Below are positions 3,874 through 23,332 of a stretch of DNA of 29,593 nucleotides, piece by piece. Source of the DNA: a virus; IMG/VR virus record IMGVR_UViG_3300025889_000662, positions 1 to 29,593 of that record; one strand, written 5' to 3'. Under the pieces are notes generated by a model. That model did no database searches. It saw only the letters and a list, made by a program, of their open reading frames with translations, and was not told where the DNA came from. How positions within the stretch are numbered: the first letter of the stretch is position 1; every line of letters starts with the position of its first letter. A program made the translations under genes and the position numbers.

Positions 3874-4296
3874 TCACTCAAGGTTGCCAGTAATGGTACC
3901 GCTGGTGATGAAGCTGCAGGTGACGATAACAAGCTCACCAACAGTGGAAGTAATCTCCATGTCAGTGATAATGCCATCAAAAGAGACGGAATCACTACCT
4001 GGAGTGCTTCCAGTAGTGAACAGTTCAAAGCTGGCGTCAGCGCCGTCAGCAGCAGTCAAAACGTCTTCAATGAAGCCAGGTTGACCTGTTGCAGCAGGGT
4101 CGTAAACCAGTTCAACAGTGCCGGAGCCAGAAATCATGCTGCCGACAAACTTTCGGAATGTGTCGCCGTGAGCACTTGTGTCCAAGGTTTCCTTGGTAGT
4201 GGTCAGGCTCCAGCTACGGGTGCCAACAACAGTTGCGTTAGTAGAGCCTGCTGCGTCGAATTGGACGGAGCCTTGCTCGCCTCGAATGACAGCCAT
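3874..4296 (-). CDS. Major tail protein (tail tube subunit)
   Basis: A 140-residue beta-rich protein (MAVIRGEQGSVQFDAAGSTN; later strands ending VGELVIVTCSFITSGTITGN). It has the alternating Thr/Ser/Gly strand pattern of siphovirus tail tube proteins and few helices. It lies between the tail terminator-like gene (3 bases apart) and the tail chaperone gene, the canonical place of the tube gene. A GxxGTVELVYDPAATG segment in the middle resembles the loop-strand region of lambda gpV-type tubes. No Ig-like extension is present, so the tube should be smooth. Confidence comes mainly from gene order plus fold-like composition. Confidence 0.8.
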   Translation of the reverse strand: MAVIRGEQGSVQFDAAGSTNATVVGTRSWSLTTTKETLDTSAHGDTFRKFVGSMISGSGTVELVYDPAATGQPGFIEDVLTAADGADASFELFTTGSTPGSDSVSFDGIITDMEITSTVGELVIVTCSFITSGTITGNLE

Positions 4297-17502: not shown

Positions 17503-17798
17503 CAGGCGAATGCCTCCTCACGACGACGCTCCTCTTCGGCATGAGGGTGCAGGGCAAAGCGCCCTGGAGTGATCCCATCAATCGGTGGCTTGTAGGTCAT
17601 GTACCTGCCGAACTCGTCGTATCGACCCATCGGGTAGGGATAGGCATTGCGTAACTGAAACTTGTCGAGCTTTCGGCTGGCTTCATCGAAGTCGTAAGCG
17701 TCGATGGTGCGAAACGCTGGTGCTGTTCCTTCCTTCGCAGCTTTAGGCAGCACGGCAAAGACGAATTGATTTTTGCAGTCAGGTGAAAAGAGCTTCAT
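17502..17798 (-). CDS. Small protein of unknown function
   Basis: A 98-residue protein: strand-rich start MKLFSPDCKNQFVFAVLPKA, then FRTIDAYDFDEASRKLDKFQ, a Tyr/Pro-rich middle (LRNAYPYPMGRYDEFGRYMT) and a basic/acidic C-terminal helix (PHAEEERRREEAFA). The start overlaps the replication gene's stop (ATGA), a sign of coupling. I do not recognise it. Its tight link to the initiator, in the place of lambda P after O, makes a helicase-loader partner conceivable, but the protein is much smaller than known loaders and has no ATPase motif. Confidence 0.65.
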   Translation of the reverse strand: MKLFSPDCKNQFVFAVLPKAAKEGTAPAFRTIDAYDFDEASRKLDKFQLRNAYPYPMGRYDEFGRYMTYKPPIDGITPGRFALHPHAEEERRREEAFA

Positions 17799-18613
17799 CG
17801 AATGACATCAGGGATTTGGTGAACGGATGTGATGTTGATCGGGCGGTCGTCAACGGTGGCGAAGCGTTCGTCACGTAGCCAGCGGAAGCAGTCAGGCAAT
17901 GGACAGACGAAAGCGCCGTTGGCAGCTTCCTGATGAGTGATCTCAGTTTCAAGTGCCTTAATGAGCTTGTCTTCTGTCTCGGTCCGGATTGTTTTCTGCC
18001 ACTGAGCAAGAGCCTTTGGCTTGGACTGACTTGCGGCTCTGACAGGAGCTGAGAGGTATAGCTTCCAGAACCGCTCGAACCCTTCACCGCCCTTGGTCTT
18101 GGTCTTCCGTTTTGACGGCTCAGGACTAAGACCGAAAACAGGATCACAAACCGCTGGAAGCTCGTCTTCCAGCTTTAAAAGGGTTTTTGTTATGGGTTCT
18201 TGTTTATGGGTTTTTGTTTGTAGGTCGATTTCGACCTGACCCCCTAGGTCATTTTTGACCTGACCCCTAGGTCGTTTTTGACCTGGGTCGATTTCGACCT
18301 GGGTTGGTTTTGACCTAGGTCGTTTTTGACCTGGGTGGTCGATGGTGACGTGGTAAACGGCGGTAAAACCAGGGCGTTTTTCGACCTGGATCCAGCCGCT
18401 TTCAACCAGAGTGCTTAGGGAGCGTTGCACCATCTTTCTGGTTACACCGGATCGTTGGGAGATCGTCTCCAGTGAGGCATAACAACCCTTTGGTGAGTTC
18501 CAGCCAAAACGGTGCAGCCAAAGGTAGATAACAACCGCTCTTGGGTCTAATCCAGCGTCAAGCAATTCGTATGGTGCTACCGCAAAAGCGGTTGATTTGA
18601 CATGGGCTTTCAT
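17795..18613 (-). CDS. Lambda-O-like replication initiator with iterons in its gene
   Basis: A 272-residue protein. Residues 1-92 form a winged-helix domain: MKAHVKSTAFAVAPYELLDA, VVIYLWLHRFGW, then a recognition region (SLETISQRSGVTRKMVQRSL, VESGWIQVEKR). Residues 93-132 are encoded by the iteron array. Residues 178-250 (FERFWKLYLSAP, AQWQKTI, ALETEITHQ, GAFVCPLPDCFRWL) match the C-terminal domain common in phage replication proteins that contact the host helicase system. The domain order and internal repeat array mirror lambda O. An ATG at 18649 would add 12 residues but lies inside a terminator-like hairpin, so I prefer 18613; no clear ribosome site supports either. Confidence 0.85.
   Translation of the reverse strand: MKAHVKSTAFAVAPYELLDAGLDPRAVVIYLWLHRFGWNSPKGCYASLETISQRSGVTRKMVQRSLSTLVESGWIQVEKRPGFTAVYHVTIDHPGQKRPRSKPTQVEIDPGQKRPRGQVKNDLGGQVEIDLQTKTHKQEPITKTLLKLEDELPAVCDPVFGLSPEPSKRKTKTKGGEGFERFWKLYLSAPVRAASQSKPKALAQWQKTIRTETEDKLIKALETEITHQEAANGAFVCPLPDCFRWLRDERFATVDDRPINITSVHQIPDVIR
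18153..18387. repeat. Iteron array and candidate replication origin inside the initiator gene
   Basis: Six 16-bp palindromic units of form RGGTYRNTTTYGACCT start at 18222, 18246, 18269, 18285, 18301 and 18317. The last four are head-to-tail with an exact 16-bp period; units 1 and 2 are followed by 7-8 bp C-rich spacers. Degenerate copies lie near 18336 and at 18371-18387. Next to unit 1 is a strand-biased A/T-rich block (18174-18221, T-rich on plus, with two TATGGG repeats), then an 8-bp inverted repeat GCTGGAAG / CTTCCAGC (18153-18173). Because 16 is not a multiple of 3 the repeat runs through all codon phases, pointing to selection on DNA. Layout matches lambda ori. Confidence 0.82.
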
Positions 18614-18620
18614 GTATGCT
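18592..18620 (+). promoter_or_regulatory. Candidate rightward promoter at the 5' end of the initiator gene
   Basis: TTGATT (18592-18597), a 17-base spacer and TATGCT (18615-18620), each 4 of 6 matches to the sigma-70 consensus. Transcription would start near 18627 and meet the terminator at 18641-18666, giving an RNA of about 40 nt antisense to the leader of the initiator mRNA. Promoter activity is inferred from sequence only. Confidence 0.4.
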
Positions 18621-18640
18621 GATTGGGCGAATGAAGACGC

Positions 18641-18666
18641 AGCCGCCATGCTCCTGGCGGCTTTTT
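18641..18666 (+). terminator. Rightward terminator hairpin upstream of the initiator gene
   Basis: AGCCGCCA (18641-18648), loop TGCTCC, TGGCGGCT (18655-18662), then TTTTATTG: an 8-bp perfect GC-rich stem followed by a T tract on the plus strand. On the minus strand there is no T tract after the stem. No plus-strand gene ends here, so it should end a short antisense or leader RNA. Confidence 0.75.
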
Positions 18667-18695
18667 ATTGTATTCCGGGAAGCTGGGTTGTAAAC

Positions 18696-19801: not shown

Positions 19802-19833
19802 TATAGTTGGACCAAGGGCACAGCCCACCACCT
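19802..19833 (+). promoter_or_regulatory. Early promoter -10 with 5'-terminal hairpin leader
   Basis: TATAGT (19802-19807) then 8 bases, hairpin GGGC-ACA-GCCC (19816-19826), then ACCACC (19827-19832), 10 bases before the ATG at 19843. A start near 19814 puts the hairpin at the very 5' end of the mRNA. An outer 8-bp inverted repeat, AGGTGGTG (19794-19801) and CACCACCT (19826-19833), encloses the -10 element. No good -35 is seen. Spacing and sequence recur at 22838. Confidence 0.6.
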
Positions 19834-19842
19834 TTCTTCCTA

Positions 19843-20022
19843 ATGGAAACCATCGAATCCCAACTCGCTTCTGTTAAGCAGCAACTAGCAGAAGCTCAAA
19901 CCGAATACCAGCACTGCTTCGCCCGTGGCGACTGGGCGGAGTGCAGCAAAGCAAAGCGCAAGGTTGCAAAGCAGATGAAGCAGGTGCAATTCCTCGTCGC
20001 TCAAAAACTCGCCATTCGCTGA
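19843..20022 (+). CDS. Small coiled-coil protein
   Basis: A 59-residue protein: METIESQLASVKQQLAEAQT, then EYQHCFARGDWAECSKAKRK and VAKQMKQVQFLVAQKLAIR. It is one long helical hairpin with heptad spacing and a basic C-terminal half. The frame could be extended to a TTG at 19807, but that lies inside the promoter, so the ATG at 19843 is used. First gene after the hairpin leader promoter. No family known; small dimeric helical phage proteins often bind host proteins or nucleic acid (inference only). Confidence 0.7.
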   Translation: METIESQLASVKQQLAEAQTEYQHCFARGDWAECSKAKRKVAKQMKQVQFLVAQKLAIR

Positions 20023-20025
20023 ACC

Positions 20026-20193
20026 ATGGACATCTATCTCGCAAATGGCTTTCAGGATCGAGACGACTACCTCGATTCCCTCCGTGAAGACTACGGAGAA
20101 GCCGTTGATCTTTTGACCTCTATTCTTCCGGCTTCAGAAGACTTCGACGGACTGGTAACCGCACTGGAGGACATGGCTGATGAAATGCTTTGA
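20026..20193 (+). CDS. Small acidic protein of unknown function
   Basis: A 55-residue, strongly acidic protein: MDIYLANGFQDRDDYLDSLR, EDYGEAVDLLTSILPASEDF, DGLVTALEDMADEML. It follows the coiled-coil gene in the recurring junction TGA-ACC-ATG with no Shine-Dalgarno site, and overlaps the next gene by 14 bases. Net charge is very negative, which would suit a DNA mimic or a protein-binding inhibitor, but this is a guess. The composition (Asp/Glu/Leu pattern, helical) makes translation likely. Confidence 0.65.
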   Translation: MDIYLANGFQDRDDYLDSLREDYGEAVDLLTSILPASEDFDGLVTALEDMADEML

Positions 20194-20428
20194 AGTCGGT
20201 CAGGTCTATTACGGCACACTTTCCTGTGCTCATAGTGATTTTCCAGTCCGTTGCGTTAAACGAACCGAAAAGTCAGTCTGGTTTGAACACGTCACCCATT
20301 CACATGCTTATGCCGTATCACGCTGCAAGATCCATAAGTGGGATGACTGCGAGACCGCTAGCTTCCACCGCTGGTACATCAGCAGCACGAAGCTCACTGG
20401 CGGCGATTTTGACCCCATGACCATCTGA
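20180..20428 (+). CDS. Small protein of unknown function
   Basis: An 82-residue protein, MKCFEVGQVYYGTLSCAHSD then FPVRCVKRTEKSVWFEHVTH. It is beta-rich with an SH3-like alternation of G-x-V-Y-Y and V-W-F-E-H-V strands. The C-terminal part carries Trp/His (KWDDCETASFHRWYISSTKL). Four cysteines are present without classic zinc spacing. It lies in an early gene cluster of tightly packed small genes. Function unknown; similar beta-barrel small proteins occur in cyanophages, from memory. Confidence 0.68.
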   Translation: MKCFEVGQVYYGTLSCAHSDFPVRCVKRTEKSVWFEHVTHSHAYAVSRCKIHKWDDCETASFHRWYISSTKLTGGDFDPMTI

Positions 20429-20431
20429 ACC

Positions 20432-20656
20432 ATGAAAGACATCACCATCGGCGCACCTGCCAACCGCAACGAAGTCATCTACGAAGTCCAGTTCACCGCT
20501 GTTGAACTTGACCTGTTGTACGAGCTGACCCGTGAAACACGGAACAACATCATGGCGATTCAAGAAAATCCTGAACCTGGGTCTTGGGTTGACAGCGTGA
20601 TCCAGCTAGACAAGAAGCTGACATCCATGTTCCACAAAAGGCACTGCTCATGCTGA
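20432..20656 (+). CDS. Small protein of unknown function
   Basis: A 74-residue protein: MKDITIGAPANRNEVIYEVQ, FTAVELDLLYELTRETRNNI, ending in KLTSMFHKRHCSC. A beta N-terminus and a long helix (TAVELDLLYELTRETRNNIM) followed by another helix. The gene starts in a TGA-ACC-ATG junction. The C-terminal H-x3-H-C-x-C could bind a metal, but one zinc site from such a short tail is uncertain. No family recognised. Confidence 0.65.
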   Translation: MKDITIGAPANRNEVIYEVQFTAVELDLLYELTRETRNNIMAIQENPEPGSWVDSVIQLDKKLTSMFHKRHCSC

Positions 20657-20853
20657 AGCCAAAGCTCCGAAACAACCCTGTCAAATCTGTCCCGCTTGAT
20701 CTCCTGATGGTTGGCTACCACTGGGAGAGCGTCCGAGAACGCTATTTCATCAAGCACAACATGGGCAAAGAAGCCCTTGATGCCTTAAAGCTGCGCCAGA
20801 TCTATGCACGAAGGATCTGGGACGAATGCGGCATCCACATTCCCGTCAACTAA
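20650..20853 (+). CDS. Small protein of unknown function
   Basis: A 67-residue basic protein: MLKPKLRNNPVKSVPLDLLM, VGYHWESVRERYFIKHNMGK, then EALDALKLRQIYARRIWDEC. Helical, with Tyr/Trp-rich central part. The start overlaps the end of the previous gene by 7 bases, implying coupled translation. It is not related to its neighbours by sequence as far as I can see. Function unknown. Confidence 0.68.
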   Translation: MLKPKLRNNPVKSVPLDLLMVGYHWESVRERYFIKHNMGKEALDALKLRQIYARRIWDECGIHIPVN

Positions 20854-20863
20854 CCAAAGCACC

Positions 20864-21589
20864 ATGACCACTGAACACCCCAAGTCAATCGAGGCACCAA
20901 TCCTCCGCTTCTTTCATTCCCCAGTTTCCTGGGATAAGGGCGTTAAAAACGGCGGCATGACCGCTGTGCTGAAGCTGCCGGAAGGCGAATGGAATGACGT
21001 GCTTGTCTACCAACCTGATGCTCCCAACGAAAACTGGTGGGATGTACTGCCACGCAATACCGTAATTCGTGCAGCCATACGCGAGCCTGCCAAGAAGAAC
21101 CCTAGGGATCTGATTGCTTTTGCCTTGCCATTGAAGAACCAGCCTTCTGCAACACAGGATCTCATCGCCAAACTCATGAGTAACGACCAAGACAATCAGC
21201 AGCCAGAACTGACTGAAGGCGACAAGCTGGAAGCCCAGATTAAAGAAGGCGTCGAAAAGAAACGCCGAAATCAGCAACTGATTCAGCAATCCAAGCGCCT
21301 GCAGCGTCTGATCCTGATGGGTGAATGGCTCGAAAAGAACGAGTCCGCCTTGAAGTGCATACAGTCAACGATCTGTACTTCTGTCTTCCGCTGGTACGAC
21401 GACAACAGCGAAGAAGCCGACAGCACGGCACTGCACGAAATGCTGGATGCATTGCATCTCAATATGGATCTGATCCGAGATATGCGGCAGAAGTGCTGGT
21501 GCCCTGATACAGATTGCGAAGGAACCCTTTACTACACCGATGGCACTGGCAAACCTGTGAAGGTCATTGACCTAAACGAGGTGGCATGA
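20864..21589 (+). CDS. Early protein of unknown function with C-terminal cysteines
   Basis: A 241-residue protein starting MTTEHPKSIEAPILRFFHSP. Residues 1-105 are a beta-rich domain (GMTAVLKLPEGEWNDVLVYQ; NTVIRAAIREPAK). Residues 110-165 are acidic and then coiled-coil (LEAQIKEGVEKKRRNQQLIQ). The rest is helical and ends with KCWCPDTDCEGTLYYTDGTG, a cysteine-rich hairpin that might bind metal. The ATG at 20864 follows an ACC; the frame is open upstream to 20804 inside the previous gene. It is the largest unknown in the early region. I have no family for it. Confidence 0.72.
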   Translation: MTTEHPKSIEAPILRFFHSPVSWDKGVKNGGMTAVLKLPEGEWNDVLVYQPDAPNENWWDVLPRNTVIRAAIREPAKKNPRDLIAFALPLKNQPSATQDLIAKLMSNDQDNQQPELTEGDKLEAQIKEGVEKKRRNQQLIQQSKRLQRLILMGEWLEKNESALKCIQSTICTSVFRWYDDNSEEADSTALHEMLDALHLNMDLIRDMRQKCWCPDTDCEGTLYYTDGTGKPVKVIDLNEVA

Positions 21590-21786
21590 AAGGCGCTAAA
21601 CAGTTGCTGGTTTATCTGGCGGTGCTACTGACTGGCAAGCGCGATCTGGCTCCAATCTTGGAAATGCCACTTGATGACGAAGCCCGCGAGTACCTGCTGA
21701 CGATGGAACGCGACTGGCAGGTTGCTTTGCTTGAGCACTGCTTGACTTTGGCACCTGGCAAGTATCGGCGGGATCCATCCTCCTGA
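21586..21786 (+). CDS. Small helical protein of unknown function
   Basis: A 66-residue protein: MKGAKQLLVYLAVLLTGKRD, LAPILEMPLDDEAREYLLTM, ERDWQVALLEHCLTLAPGKY. The N-terminal KQLLVYLAVLLTG could be a short membrane-associated helix, but charged residues follow closely, so a soluble helical bundle is equally likely. Start overlaps the previous stop (ATGA) and is preceded by GAGG. The last gene before a 218-base gap. Confidence 0.65.
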   Translation: MKGAKQLLVYLAVLLTGKRDLAPILEMPLDDEAREYLLTMERDWQVALLEHCLTLAPGKYRRDPSS

Positions 21787-22004
21787 TGATGGGGCATTGA
21801 GAAAGGAGTTCTACAGGTCCTTCTGGCTGCTGCCTGCGTAGGGGTTGCCACTGGTCGGGCTAACTGGTGGGAGGACATCCCAAGCGCAAGAAGCTCAAAG
21901 GTTCCCGTCGAGGACACGGTGTAGTTCCAGGCAGAAGTGCCCCCATTGGCACCGTGCAAGCTGCCGCCTCATGTAAGTCCCCAACCCAAAAGTTTTACAA
22001 ACTA
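21787..22004 (+). other. Gap without a confident gene
   Basis: 218 bases. A good AAAGGAG site at 21801-21807 is followed by an open frame reading LQVLLAAACVGVATGRANWW, then EDIPSARSSKVPVEDTV, ending at a TAG. It looks like a short signal or membrane segment plus tail, but no ATG/GTG/TTG start lies at a suitable distance. A second frame from a GTG at 21867 runs into the next gene and would add a basic 46-residue N-terminus (MGGHPKRKKLKGSRRGHGVV). Either could be real. Confidence 0.3.
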
Positions 22005-22430
22005 ATGCTCAAAGACATCACACGCTGTCACGGCACTGGTTGCCCCATAAAGCAACAGTGCCTCAGGCACACCGCGCCAATTCCAGACAATACTCTGCTG
22101 TCATGGGCAGCAAACCTAAATCATGAACGGGCGCACATCTGCGCTTACTACATGCCCGCTACGCCCGAACTTTCACCCACTGCTCGGGCAGTGTTTGAGG
22201 CATTCAATAGCAGATTCGAGTGGATCGAAGACGGCGTGCCAGCCCCCCAGTTCAAGGCGCTCGCCGCCGCCCTGCGTGCCGCTGCGAATCAGGTGGTGCC
22301 GGAAATTGAAATACTGCCACAACAGGATCTAGAAGACAGACGCGAAGCAATGGAGTGGGGCATGAAAAACCAAACTCAGCTCACTCGCCAACAACTTTTC
22401 GCCGTCGCTGCCGAACTTGAAGCCCAGTAG
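22005..22430 (+). CDS. Cysteine-cluster protein of unknown function
   Basis: A 141-residue protein starting MLKDITRCHGTGCPIKQQCL. Cysteines 8, 13, 19 and 46 (ERAHICAYYMPA) form a pattern suited to zinc or an iron-sulfur cluster. The rest is Ala-rich and helical, with an acidic helix near the end (LEDRREAMEWGMKNQTQ). I recall C-H-G-T-G-C-P proteins in cyanophages but no function. The ATG at 22005 is chosen because the metal-binding motif begins there; a GTG at 21867 would lengthen it by 46 basic residues. Confidence 0.68.
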   Translation: MLKDITRCHGTGCPIKQQCLRHTAPIPDNTLLSWAANLNHERAHICAYYMPATPELSPTARAVFEAFNSRFEWIEDGVPAPQFKALAAALRAAANQVVPEIEILPQQDLEDRREAMEWGMKNQTQLTRQQLFAVAAELEAQ

Positions 22431-22442
22431 TCAGATTAACTA

Positions 22443-22772
22443 ATGAAACGACTTATTTTTTCAGCACTGCTGCTGTTCAATTCGCCTGCAATGGCACACC
22501 ACATCGGACGATCAGTACAGGCAACGGTCTATGACCCATGGTTCAACGGCAGAACCGCCTACTGCGGCAGCCGGTACCAGCACTGGGGCATTAGCGCAGC
22601 GCATCCATGGCTTGAGTGCGGCACGAAGGTCCAGGTCAGCCATAAGGGGCGGATGCTGACAGTGCCGATTACAGATCGGTGCGATTGCAACAGTATCGAT
22701 CTATCGGCAGGTGCCGCTCATCGATTAGGCGTTCCGCTTGATGGGACAGCACAGGTGCGGATCAGCTACTAG
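22443..22772 (+). CDS. Secreted RlpA-like double-psi beta-barrel protein
   Basis: A 109-residue protein. Residues 1-18 are a clear signal peptide (MKRLIFSALLLFNSPAMA, cut before HHIG). The mature 90 residues match the RlpA-like/barwin double-psi beta-barrel: VQATVYDPWFNGRTAYCGSR, GISAAHPWLECGTKVQV, LTVPITDRCDCNSIDLSAGA, AHRLGVPLDGTAQVRISY. The aspartate in T-D-R and the A-A-H-P-W-L-x-C-G-T segment correspond to conserved positions of lytic-transglycosylase RlpA and of expansin-like folds. Four to five cysteines may form disulfides outside the cytoplasm. There is no SPOR domain. A wall-remodelling role is plausible but activity is not certain. Confidence 0.8.
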   Translation: MKRLIFSALLLFNSPAMAHHIGRSVQATVYDPWFNGRTAYCGSRYQHWGISAAHPWLECGTKVQVSHKGRMLTVPITDRCDCNSIDLSAGAAHRLGVPLDGTAQVRISY

Positions 22773-22814
22773 GGCTGCCGCATTGAAAAGAATTGTTTCT
22801 GGCTCCAAAACAGC

Positions 22815-22871
22815 TTGCTTTTGGATCCATTCTGGGTTATAGTTGGTTCATGAGGCAAGAGCCTCACCACC
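22815..22871 (+). promoter_or_regulatory. Early promoter with 5'-terminal hairpin leader
   Basis: TTGCTT (22815-22820), an exact 17-base spacer and TATAGT (22838-22843) make a good sigma-70 promoter. After 8 bases comes the hairpin GAGGC-AAGA-GCCTC (22852-22865), then ACCACC (22866-22871). The gap from -10 to hairpin equals that at 19802, and TATAGTTGG is shared. It would drive the operon beginning at 22888. Confidence 0.75.
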
Positions 22872-22887
22872 CATCGCGTCCCAAACC

Positions 22888-23124
22888 ATGCTTTCCCTTC
22901 AACCCCGCGACAACGCAGAGCTTTCCCTTCAAGACGAAACCCTCCTCGCAGAAGATCTTGCAGACCTGTTCAACGATTACGTCTGCGAGCATCTAGTTGA
23001 AACCCTTTACGAGATGGCAAAAGAAGTCATCGAGCGCAACACCGGCATGGATCCAAGTAGCGACGAAGGTCTTGACCTCGCCCTTGATCTGATCCGCCGT
23101 ATCAAAGTCACTGCCACCAAATAA
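22888..23124 (+). CDS. Small acidic helical protein
   Basis: A 78-residue, strongly acidic protein: MLSLQPRDNAELSLQDETLL, AEDLADLFNDYVCEHLVETL, YEMAKEVIERNTGMDPSSDE, GLDLALDLIRRIKVTATK. It has long amphipathic helices. The start ATG at 22888 has the AAACC-ATG context; a frame open back to 22843 lies within the promoter and is not used. First gene behind the second hairpin-leader promoter. Function unknown. Confidence 0.68.
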   Translation: MLSLQPRDNAELSLQDETLLAEDLADLFNDYVCEHLVETLYEMAKEVIERNTGMDPSSDEGLDLALDLIRRIKVTATK

Positions 23125-23146
23125 CTTACCCATCGCGTTTTTAATC

Positions 23147-23332
23147 ATGATCTCAACCACAATCCTCTGGCTATTAGCCCTGCTGATTCTGCCCTTGCTC
23201 ATCATCTGGCATTTCAGCAAATCCAAGTCCCAACGCATCAACGAACAACGACAGCGCGGCTGGACTTGGAAACAGGTCGCCGCTTACTGGAACTGCTCAC
23301 CCTCTACCGCACGCCGCTGGGCTGCTGCTTGA
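23147..23332 (+). CDS. Membrane-anchored helix-turn-helix protein
   Basis: A 61-residue protein. Residues 1-22 form one transmembrane helix (ISTTILWLLALLILPLLIIW). A short basic linker (HFSKSKSQRINEQRQ) is followed by RGWTWKQVAAYWNCSPSTAR and RWAAA, a helix-turn-helix (W-T-W-x-x-V-A-x-Y-x-x-C-S-P-S-T-A-x-R-W) like those of terminase small subunits and AlpA-type proteins. The positive-inside rule puts the HTH in the cytoplasm. A membrane segment joined to a bare HTH is unusual. It may tether DNA to the membrane or act in a regulatory relay; both are guesses. Confidence 0.72.
   Translation: MISTTILWLLALLILPLLIIWHFSKSKSQRINEQRQRGWTWKQVAAYWNCSPSTARRWAAA

Follow-up and report, generated by a model that had tools for sequence, protein, structure and literature searches.

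Conserved pairing in hairpins predicted at the mRNA 5' ends of two operons in a group of cyanosiphoviruses

Stem-loops at the 5' terminus that stabilise mRNA form a described class. In Escherichia coli, the 5' stem-loops of ompA and papA hinder 5'-end-dependent decay, according to the work cited in PMC3997798 (Emory 1992, Arnold 1998, Bricker 1999). In these leaders the hairpin is located at the 5' end with few unpaired bases, and a short leader follows. Phage mRNAs may also begin with a hairpin, as in the late mRNA leader of phage T7 (gene 10), which has a 5' stem-loop at +1. Lambda nut (boxA + boxB) and HK022 put (two adjacent stem-loops) are sequence-specific, multi-part antitermination RNAs located close to where early phage transcripts begin, and the hairpin of the phage N4 vRNAP promoter lies within the promoter, upstream of +1. 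Base pairing with antisense RNA has been reported to protect cyanophage transcripts from RNase E (Stazic 2011, as cited in PMC9692554). During infection of Prochlorococcus by P-SSP7, RNase E induction and antisense cover of phage transcripts have been proposed to shift decay to host RNA (PMC9692554). Cyanobacteria possess RNase E and the 5'-3' exonuclease RNase J and have no close RppH homologue (PMC10989914).

The DNA analysed here, referred to as the window, is an IMG/VR virus record of 29,593 bases whose best DNA match in INPHARED is the Synechococcus siphovirus S-CBS3. Two leaders, A and B, share one layout: TATAGT, six bases, an A predicted as transcription start (+1), a hairpin at +2/+3, and a short leader ending at an ATG (19843 and 22888) that lacks a Shine-Dalgarno (SD) site (Table 1). 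The hairpin core begins exactly 8 nt past TATAGT in both; in B, an extra T22851-A22866 pair extends the 5-bp core GAGGC-AAGA-GCCTC (22852-22865) to a 6-bp stem. A preliminary description had reported these elements, together with the ACCACC behind each stem, and the sequence confirms them. A -35-like TTG at the correct spacing is found in leader B only, not in A. TATAGTTGG occurs in the window at these two sites only (0.06 expected; 0 of 100 shuffles reach two). A composite pattern, consisting of a -10-like hexamer, 6 nt, A and a hairpin at +2/+3, matched two sites on the + strand and none on the - strand, against one site per control strand.

From about 18.8 kb, the + strand carries an exonuclease-like gene, RusA, a Sak-type annealing protein and a sigma-70 factor, a gene content that suggests early or middle genes. 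ORFs A and B gave no tblastn match in INPHARED, and no ORF A homologue was found among 386 sampled genomes of the cyanobacterial phylum in a search run without a positive control. Upstream of the leftward operon, at 18641-18694 (-), a promoter-like site TTTACA-16-TACAAT precedes the hairpin GCCGCC-AGGAGCAT-GGCGGC, which contains an SD-like AGGAG and the ATG of a 284-aa ORF. Tandem palindromic repeats of the AGGTCGTTTTTGACCT type occupy 18221-18336 within the ORF at 17795-18649 (-), and similar repeats occur near 4218 (-) in contig L298.

Table 1. Features of the two leaders in the window and related sites in other contigs
Feature	Position	Strand	Remark
-10-like hexamer TATAGT, leader A	19802-19807	+	no clear -35
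Predicted start A (+1), leader A	19814	+	6 nt past -10 hexamer
Predicted 5'-terminal hairpin A, GGGC-ACA-GCCC	19816-19826	+	sequence, folding, covariation
Linker A, hairpin to AUG, begins ACCACC, unstructured	19827-19842	+	0 G in 16 nt
ACCACC after hairpin A	19827-19832	+	directly adjoins stem
ORF A, 59 aa, conserved in phage group	19843-20022	+	homologues in related contigs
-35-like TTGCTT, leader B	22815-22820	+	17 nt from -10
-10-like hexamer TATAGT, leader B	22838-22843	+	sequence
Predicted start A (+1), leader B	22850	+	spacing from -10, conserved A
Predicted 5'-terminal hairpin B, TGAGGC-AAGA-GCCTCA	22851-22866	+	sequence, folding, covariation
ACCACC after 5-bp stem GAGGC/GCCTC, leader B	22866-22871	+	directly adjoins stem
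Linker B, hairpin to AUG	22867-22887	+	linker comparison, folding
CCCATCGCG, conserved start-proximal element (CCCAWCGCG)	22870-22878	+	motif scan of related contigs
ORF B, 78 aa, first gene of second operon	22888-23124	+	homologues in related contigs
Second CCCATCGCG, before next ORF (23147-23332)	23129-23137	+	motif scan
CCCAWCGCG recurrences outside the window	L129 8307, 8591; L130 9191, 9474; L131 4067
Starts preceded by GC-rich hairpins, S-CBS1 / S-CBS3	L307 25623-25823, 22801-22974; L308 25871-26068	-	intercistronic

Searches with ORFs A and B led to about 35 loci in related IMG/VR contigs, where the bases before the start codons were read; orthologous gene starts in about 20 such contigs provided a set of 36 leaders, 33 of them distinct. 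The upstream promoter sequence drifts among these relatives while the distance of the hairpin from the -10-like hexamer stays constant, and TTGC is found at a 17-nt spacer in 21/36 leaders. Position 2 of the hexamer is A or T in nearly all leaders and position 6 is T in all; each hexamer is followed by 6 nt, A and, two bases on, G, a regularity to be read in the light of the hexamers having been hand-picked to give the 6-nt spacing. A occupies +1 in 33/33 distinct leaders and C occupies -1 in 28/33. Among the 33 distinct leaders, 28 have a Watson-Crick stem of 4 bp or more that begins at +2/+3 and closes a loop of 3-8 nt (1.33 expected from dinucleotide shuffles), and 21 have one of 5 bp or more (0.30 expected); these counts come from related phages, many of whose leaders share a common ancestry. 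Stem starts peak sharply at the predicted +2/+3, with almost none at offsets outside +2 to +4. Leader length from +1 to ATG ranges from 29 to 44 nt; the hairpin keeps its distance from the -10 and not from the AUG, and so appears tied to the 5' end. The same lengths fall in all three residue classes modulo 3. The frame is thus not kept, and it is hardly credible that ORFs A and B are extended at the N terminus from a TTG, although both frames in the window are open with in-frame TTG at 19807 and 22843.

The stems themselves differ (GGGC/GCCC, GAGGC/GCCTC, AGCC/GGCT, GCGGG/CCCGC, TGAGC/GCTCA), and loops vary from 3 to about 11 nt with pairing retained. In an alignment of 17 distinct arm sets, which was anchored on the pairing of the arms, 87.1% of the cells pair versus 59.9% after shuffling, and 22 cells are altered on both sides versus 7.5. 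The covariation score amounts to 0.676, a value reached by 0/500 shuffles (0.209 when shuffled) and by no sliding of the arms (at most 0.215). The covariation first proposed from the two window copies is therefore borne out by relatives, which keep pairing and geometry and change the sequence; relatives that keep the sequence and lose the pairing, named beforehand as the opposing outcome, are the reverse of what is seen. Selection appears to act on the structure rather than the sequence of the hairpin, because A(+1) and G(+3) are the only invariant positions in the transcribed part. When each leader is folded with 45 nt of the gene, the average is 0.94 for pairing of the 5' arm and 0.94 for +1 being unpaired. 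Folding is less secure for A_L127 and A_L129 (0.54-0.55), A_L303 (0.72) and A_L131 (0.75), and several stems of the set have only 4 bp. A perfect inverted repeat beside a -10-like hexamer might also be a DNA operator over the transcription start, but half-site sequence and spacing are inconstant among relatives while complementarity is kept, which makes an operator very improbable. Intrinsic terminators were rejected, as no T run follows the hairpins and the sites are unlisted by a terminator scan. Rfam covariance models had no match at the leaders and one sub-threshold chance match elsewhere.

Among known kinds, the 5'-terminal stem-loop mRNA stabiliser comes nearest: structure is kept with sequence free, one or two 5' bases are predicted to be unpaired, and about a ribosome footprint before the AUG is mostly unstructured. 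The preliminary description had known of no class with this exact layout. Unlike the ompA and papA leaders, those of the phages recur in two operons across the group, covary, lack an SD site, occur in hosts that have no close homologue of RppH and are putative stabilisers. T7 relies on a promoter for the phage's own RNA polymerase and on a strong SD site, whereas the window leaders have sigma-70-like promoters and none. Antisense RNA pairs in trans over the transcript, whereas this hairpin is short, in cis and at the predicted 5' end.

In the preferred reading, to which we assign a probability of roughly 0.55, the hairpin would be a 5'-terminal stem-loop that blocks 5'-end-dependent decay and stands next to a ribosome-sized unstructured linker. 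The two operon promoters would set the start at A, so that the RNA has the form A-N-hairpin and one or two bases at its 5' end stay unpaired. The stem, if it forms in vivo, would leave no single-stranded 5' tail, which is needed for decay by RNase E 5'-sensing, RNase J or any pyrophosphohydrolase, and the linker, poor in G, mostly without structure and about as long as one ribosome footprint, would allow initiation without an SD site. The hairpin would sit at the very 5' end, with at most a few unpaired bases ahead of it, if transcription does start at the A that the distance from the -10 predicts. Such an end-blocking role fits best with pairing and geometry that are kept while sequence changes. 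The stem had been proposed to block RNase E or RppH; of this, end-blocking stands and the RppH part does not, as cyanobacteria have no close homologue of that enzyme (PMC10989914), which leaves RNase E 5'-sensing, RNase J or another pyrophosphohydrolase as the step that the stem might block. For the same reason the protected step is uncertain, which speaks against end protection. Position +2 is never G in the 33 distinct leaders, and RppH of Bacillus subtilis needs G at +2 (PMC3997798), an observation that serves as no more than a lead.

In 222 kb of related contigs, the composite pattern recovered 26 known leaders and 14 other sites versus 13 in the control, so that leaders A and B appear to be the sole such sites in each phage. 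The B-type leader stands before different first genes in different phages and thus seems to belong to the operon start. Two promoter-proximal sites per phage at operon starts, with structure better conserved than sequence, would also fit a hairpin acting in transcription, through nascent-RNA escape, pausing or antitermination of the lambda nut or HK022 put type. However, the leaders carry a single hairpin of 4-7 bp with an unconserved loop, no nut- or put-like RNA was among the Rfam matches, and the variation of stems as well as loops leaves no obvious site for sequence-specific RNA binding; we regard this reading as rather improbable. Membership of the nut/put class was rejected because the leaders have one short hairpin of variable sequence starting at +2/+3 and no conserved multi-part sequence, and that of the N4 vRNAP promoter class because the stems start at +2/+3, not upstream of +1.

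From the end of the hairpin to the AUG are 14-30 nt of G-poor, mostly unpaired linker; A-type linkers mostly contain 0-1 G in 14-21 nt. The suggestion that ACCACC serves initiation finds no support among relatives, where it is unconserved and is one version of the G-poor A linker, while B keeps CCCAWCGCG. The 222 kb of related contigs contain this element at 26 distinct sites (control, 1), and 25 of the 26 lie 4-13 nt before an ATG or GTG (random rate 0.30). It is absent from A-type leaders and belongs to the second leader, B. In the second operon of the phage group it recurs 8-11 nt before start codons, and in some relatives a GCCCC-TTCG-GGGGC hairpin precedes it. CCCAWCGCG is a possible SD substitute. 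No tie to 16S pairing was found for it, and cyanobacterial genomes have a few matches each, not far above control. Complementarity of the linkers to 16S rRNA was rejected as an SD substitute, as only two related leaders exceed chance. These are the A linkers upstream of L124 6001 and L126 6001, in related phages, with 11-12 nt complementary to 16S rRNA (GTGAGATGTTGG); the match is probably due to chance, because it is absent from other leaders.

The position of the linker also bears on a mainly translational role, in which the hairpin would insulate the start region and keep the linker single-stranded for SD-less ribosome landing, with decay unaffected. The hairpin-to-AUG distance and the unpaired linker agree with this, as do the TTCG hairpins between genes that precede CCCATCGCG and a start codon in L129, L130 and L131. 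On the other hand, intercistronic genes of the same operon often carry CCCATCGCG without a hairpin (window 23129, L127 8575, L298 8483), and hairpin spacing is fixed to the -10, not the AUG, so we consider this role unlikely. The strong conservation of CCCAWCGCG beside hairpin B and the often A-rich loops could instead indicate a binding site for a phage RNA-binding protein acting as translational repressor or activator. Stem sequence and loop length vary freely, the element is missing from A-type leaders and the B-type leader precedes unrelated first genes; a protein-binding site is accordingly quite improbable. Protection of the 5' end likewise leaves the conservation of CCCAWCGCG unexplained, which counts against it.

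The layout of the window was also found in KBS-S-2A and S-H1, phages of Synechococcus WH7803, with hairpins GCGGG-ACACAAG-CCCGC and GCGGG-GCACGAG-CCCGC, CATACT before and ACCACCCCACAA after. The A ahead of these hairpins, predicted as the start, is at KBS-S-2A 13853 and S-H1 3521, - strand. A second candidate in S-H1, GCAGGC-GATTG-GCCTGC (L343 3845, -), has a CATCAT hexamer at the same spacing and sits just inside the annotated start of AZB50533. Scans of S-CBS1, S-CBS3, S-LBS1, MED4-184 and part of S-CBS2 revealed no convincing site. S-CBS1 and S-CBS3 have GC-rich intercistronic hairpins shortly before start codons, without an evident promoter part. Samples of three genomes of the cyanobacterial phylum (about 320 kb) showed no clear excess of the geometry over control. 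A broad pattern scan of viral contigs (TATAGTTGG..CACCACC) gave chance matches without the layout, a CATGGGC..GCCCACCACC scan mostly unrelated matches beside known leaders, and a scan of genome contigs scattered raw matches in unrelated taxa.

A more far-reaching version of end protection is put forward tentatively and is doubtful as a whole: cyanosiphovirus leaders may carry a structure-only 5'-end lock, keeping only pairing, A at +1 and G at +3, that would guard phage mRNA against RNase E and RNase J where the host lacks a close homologue of RppH and that, in one operon, would go together with CCCAWCGCG as a new start element of non-SD type. One published answer to how phage mRNA survives in cyanobacteria, where RNase E is inducible by infection, is antisense RNA in trans. 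If end protection holds true, a second would be a 5' hairpin in cis whose pairing compensatory evolution maintains, and this can be tested in the cultured Synechococcus WH7803 phages KBS-S-2A and S-H1. CCCAWCGCG would in turn bear on how genes without an SD site are started in these phages.
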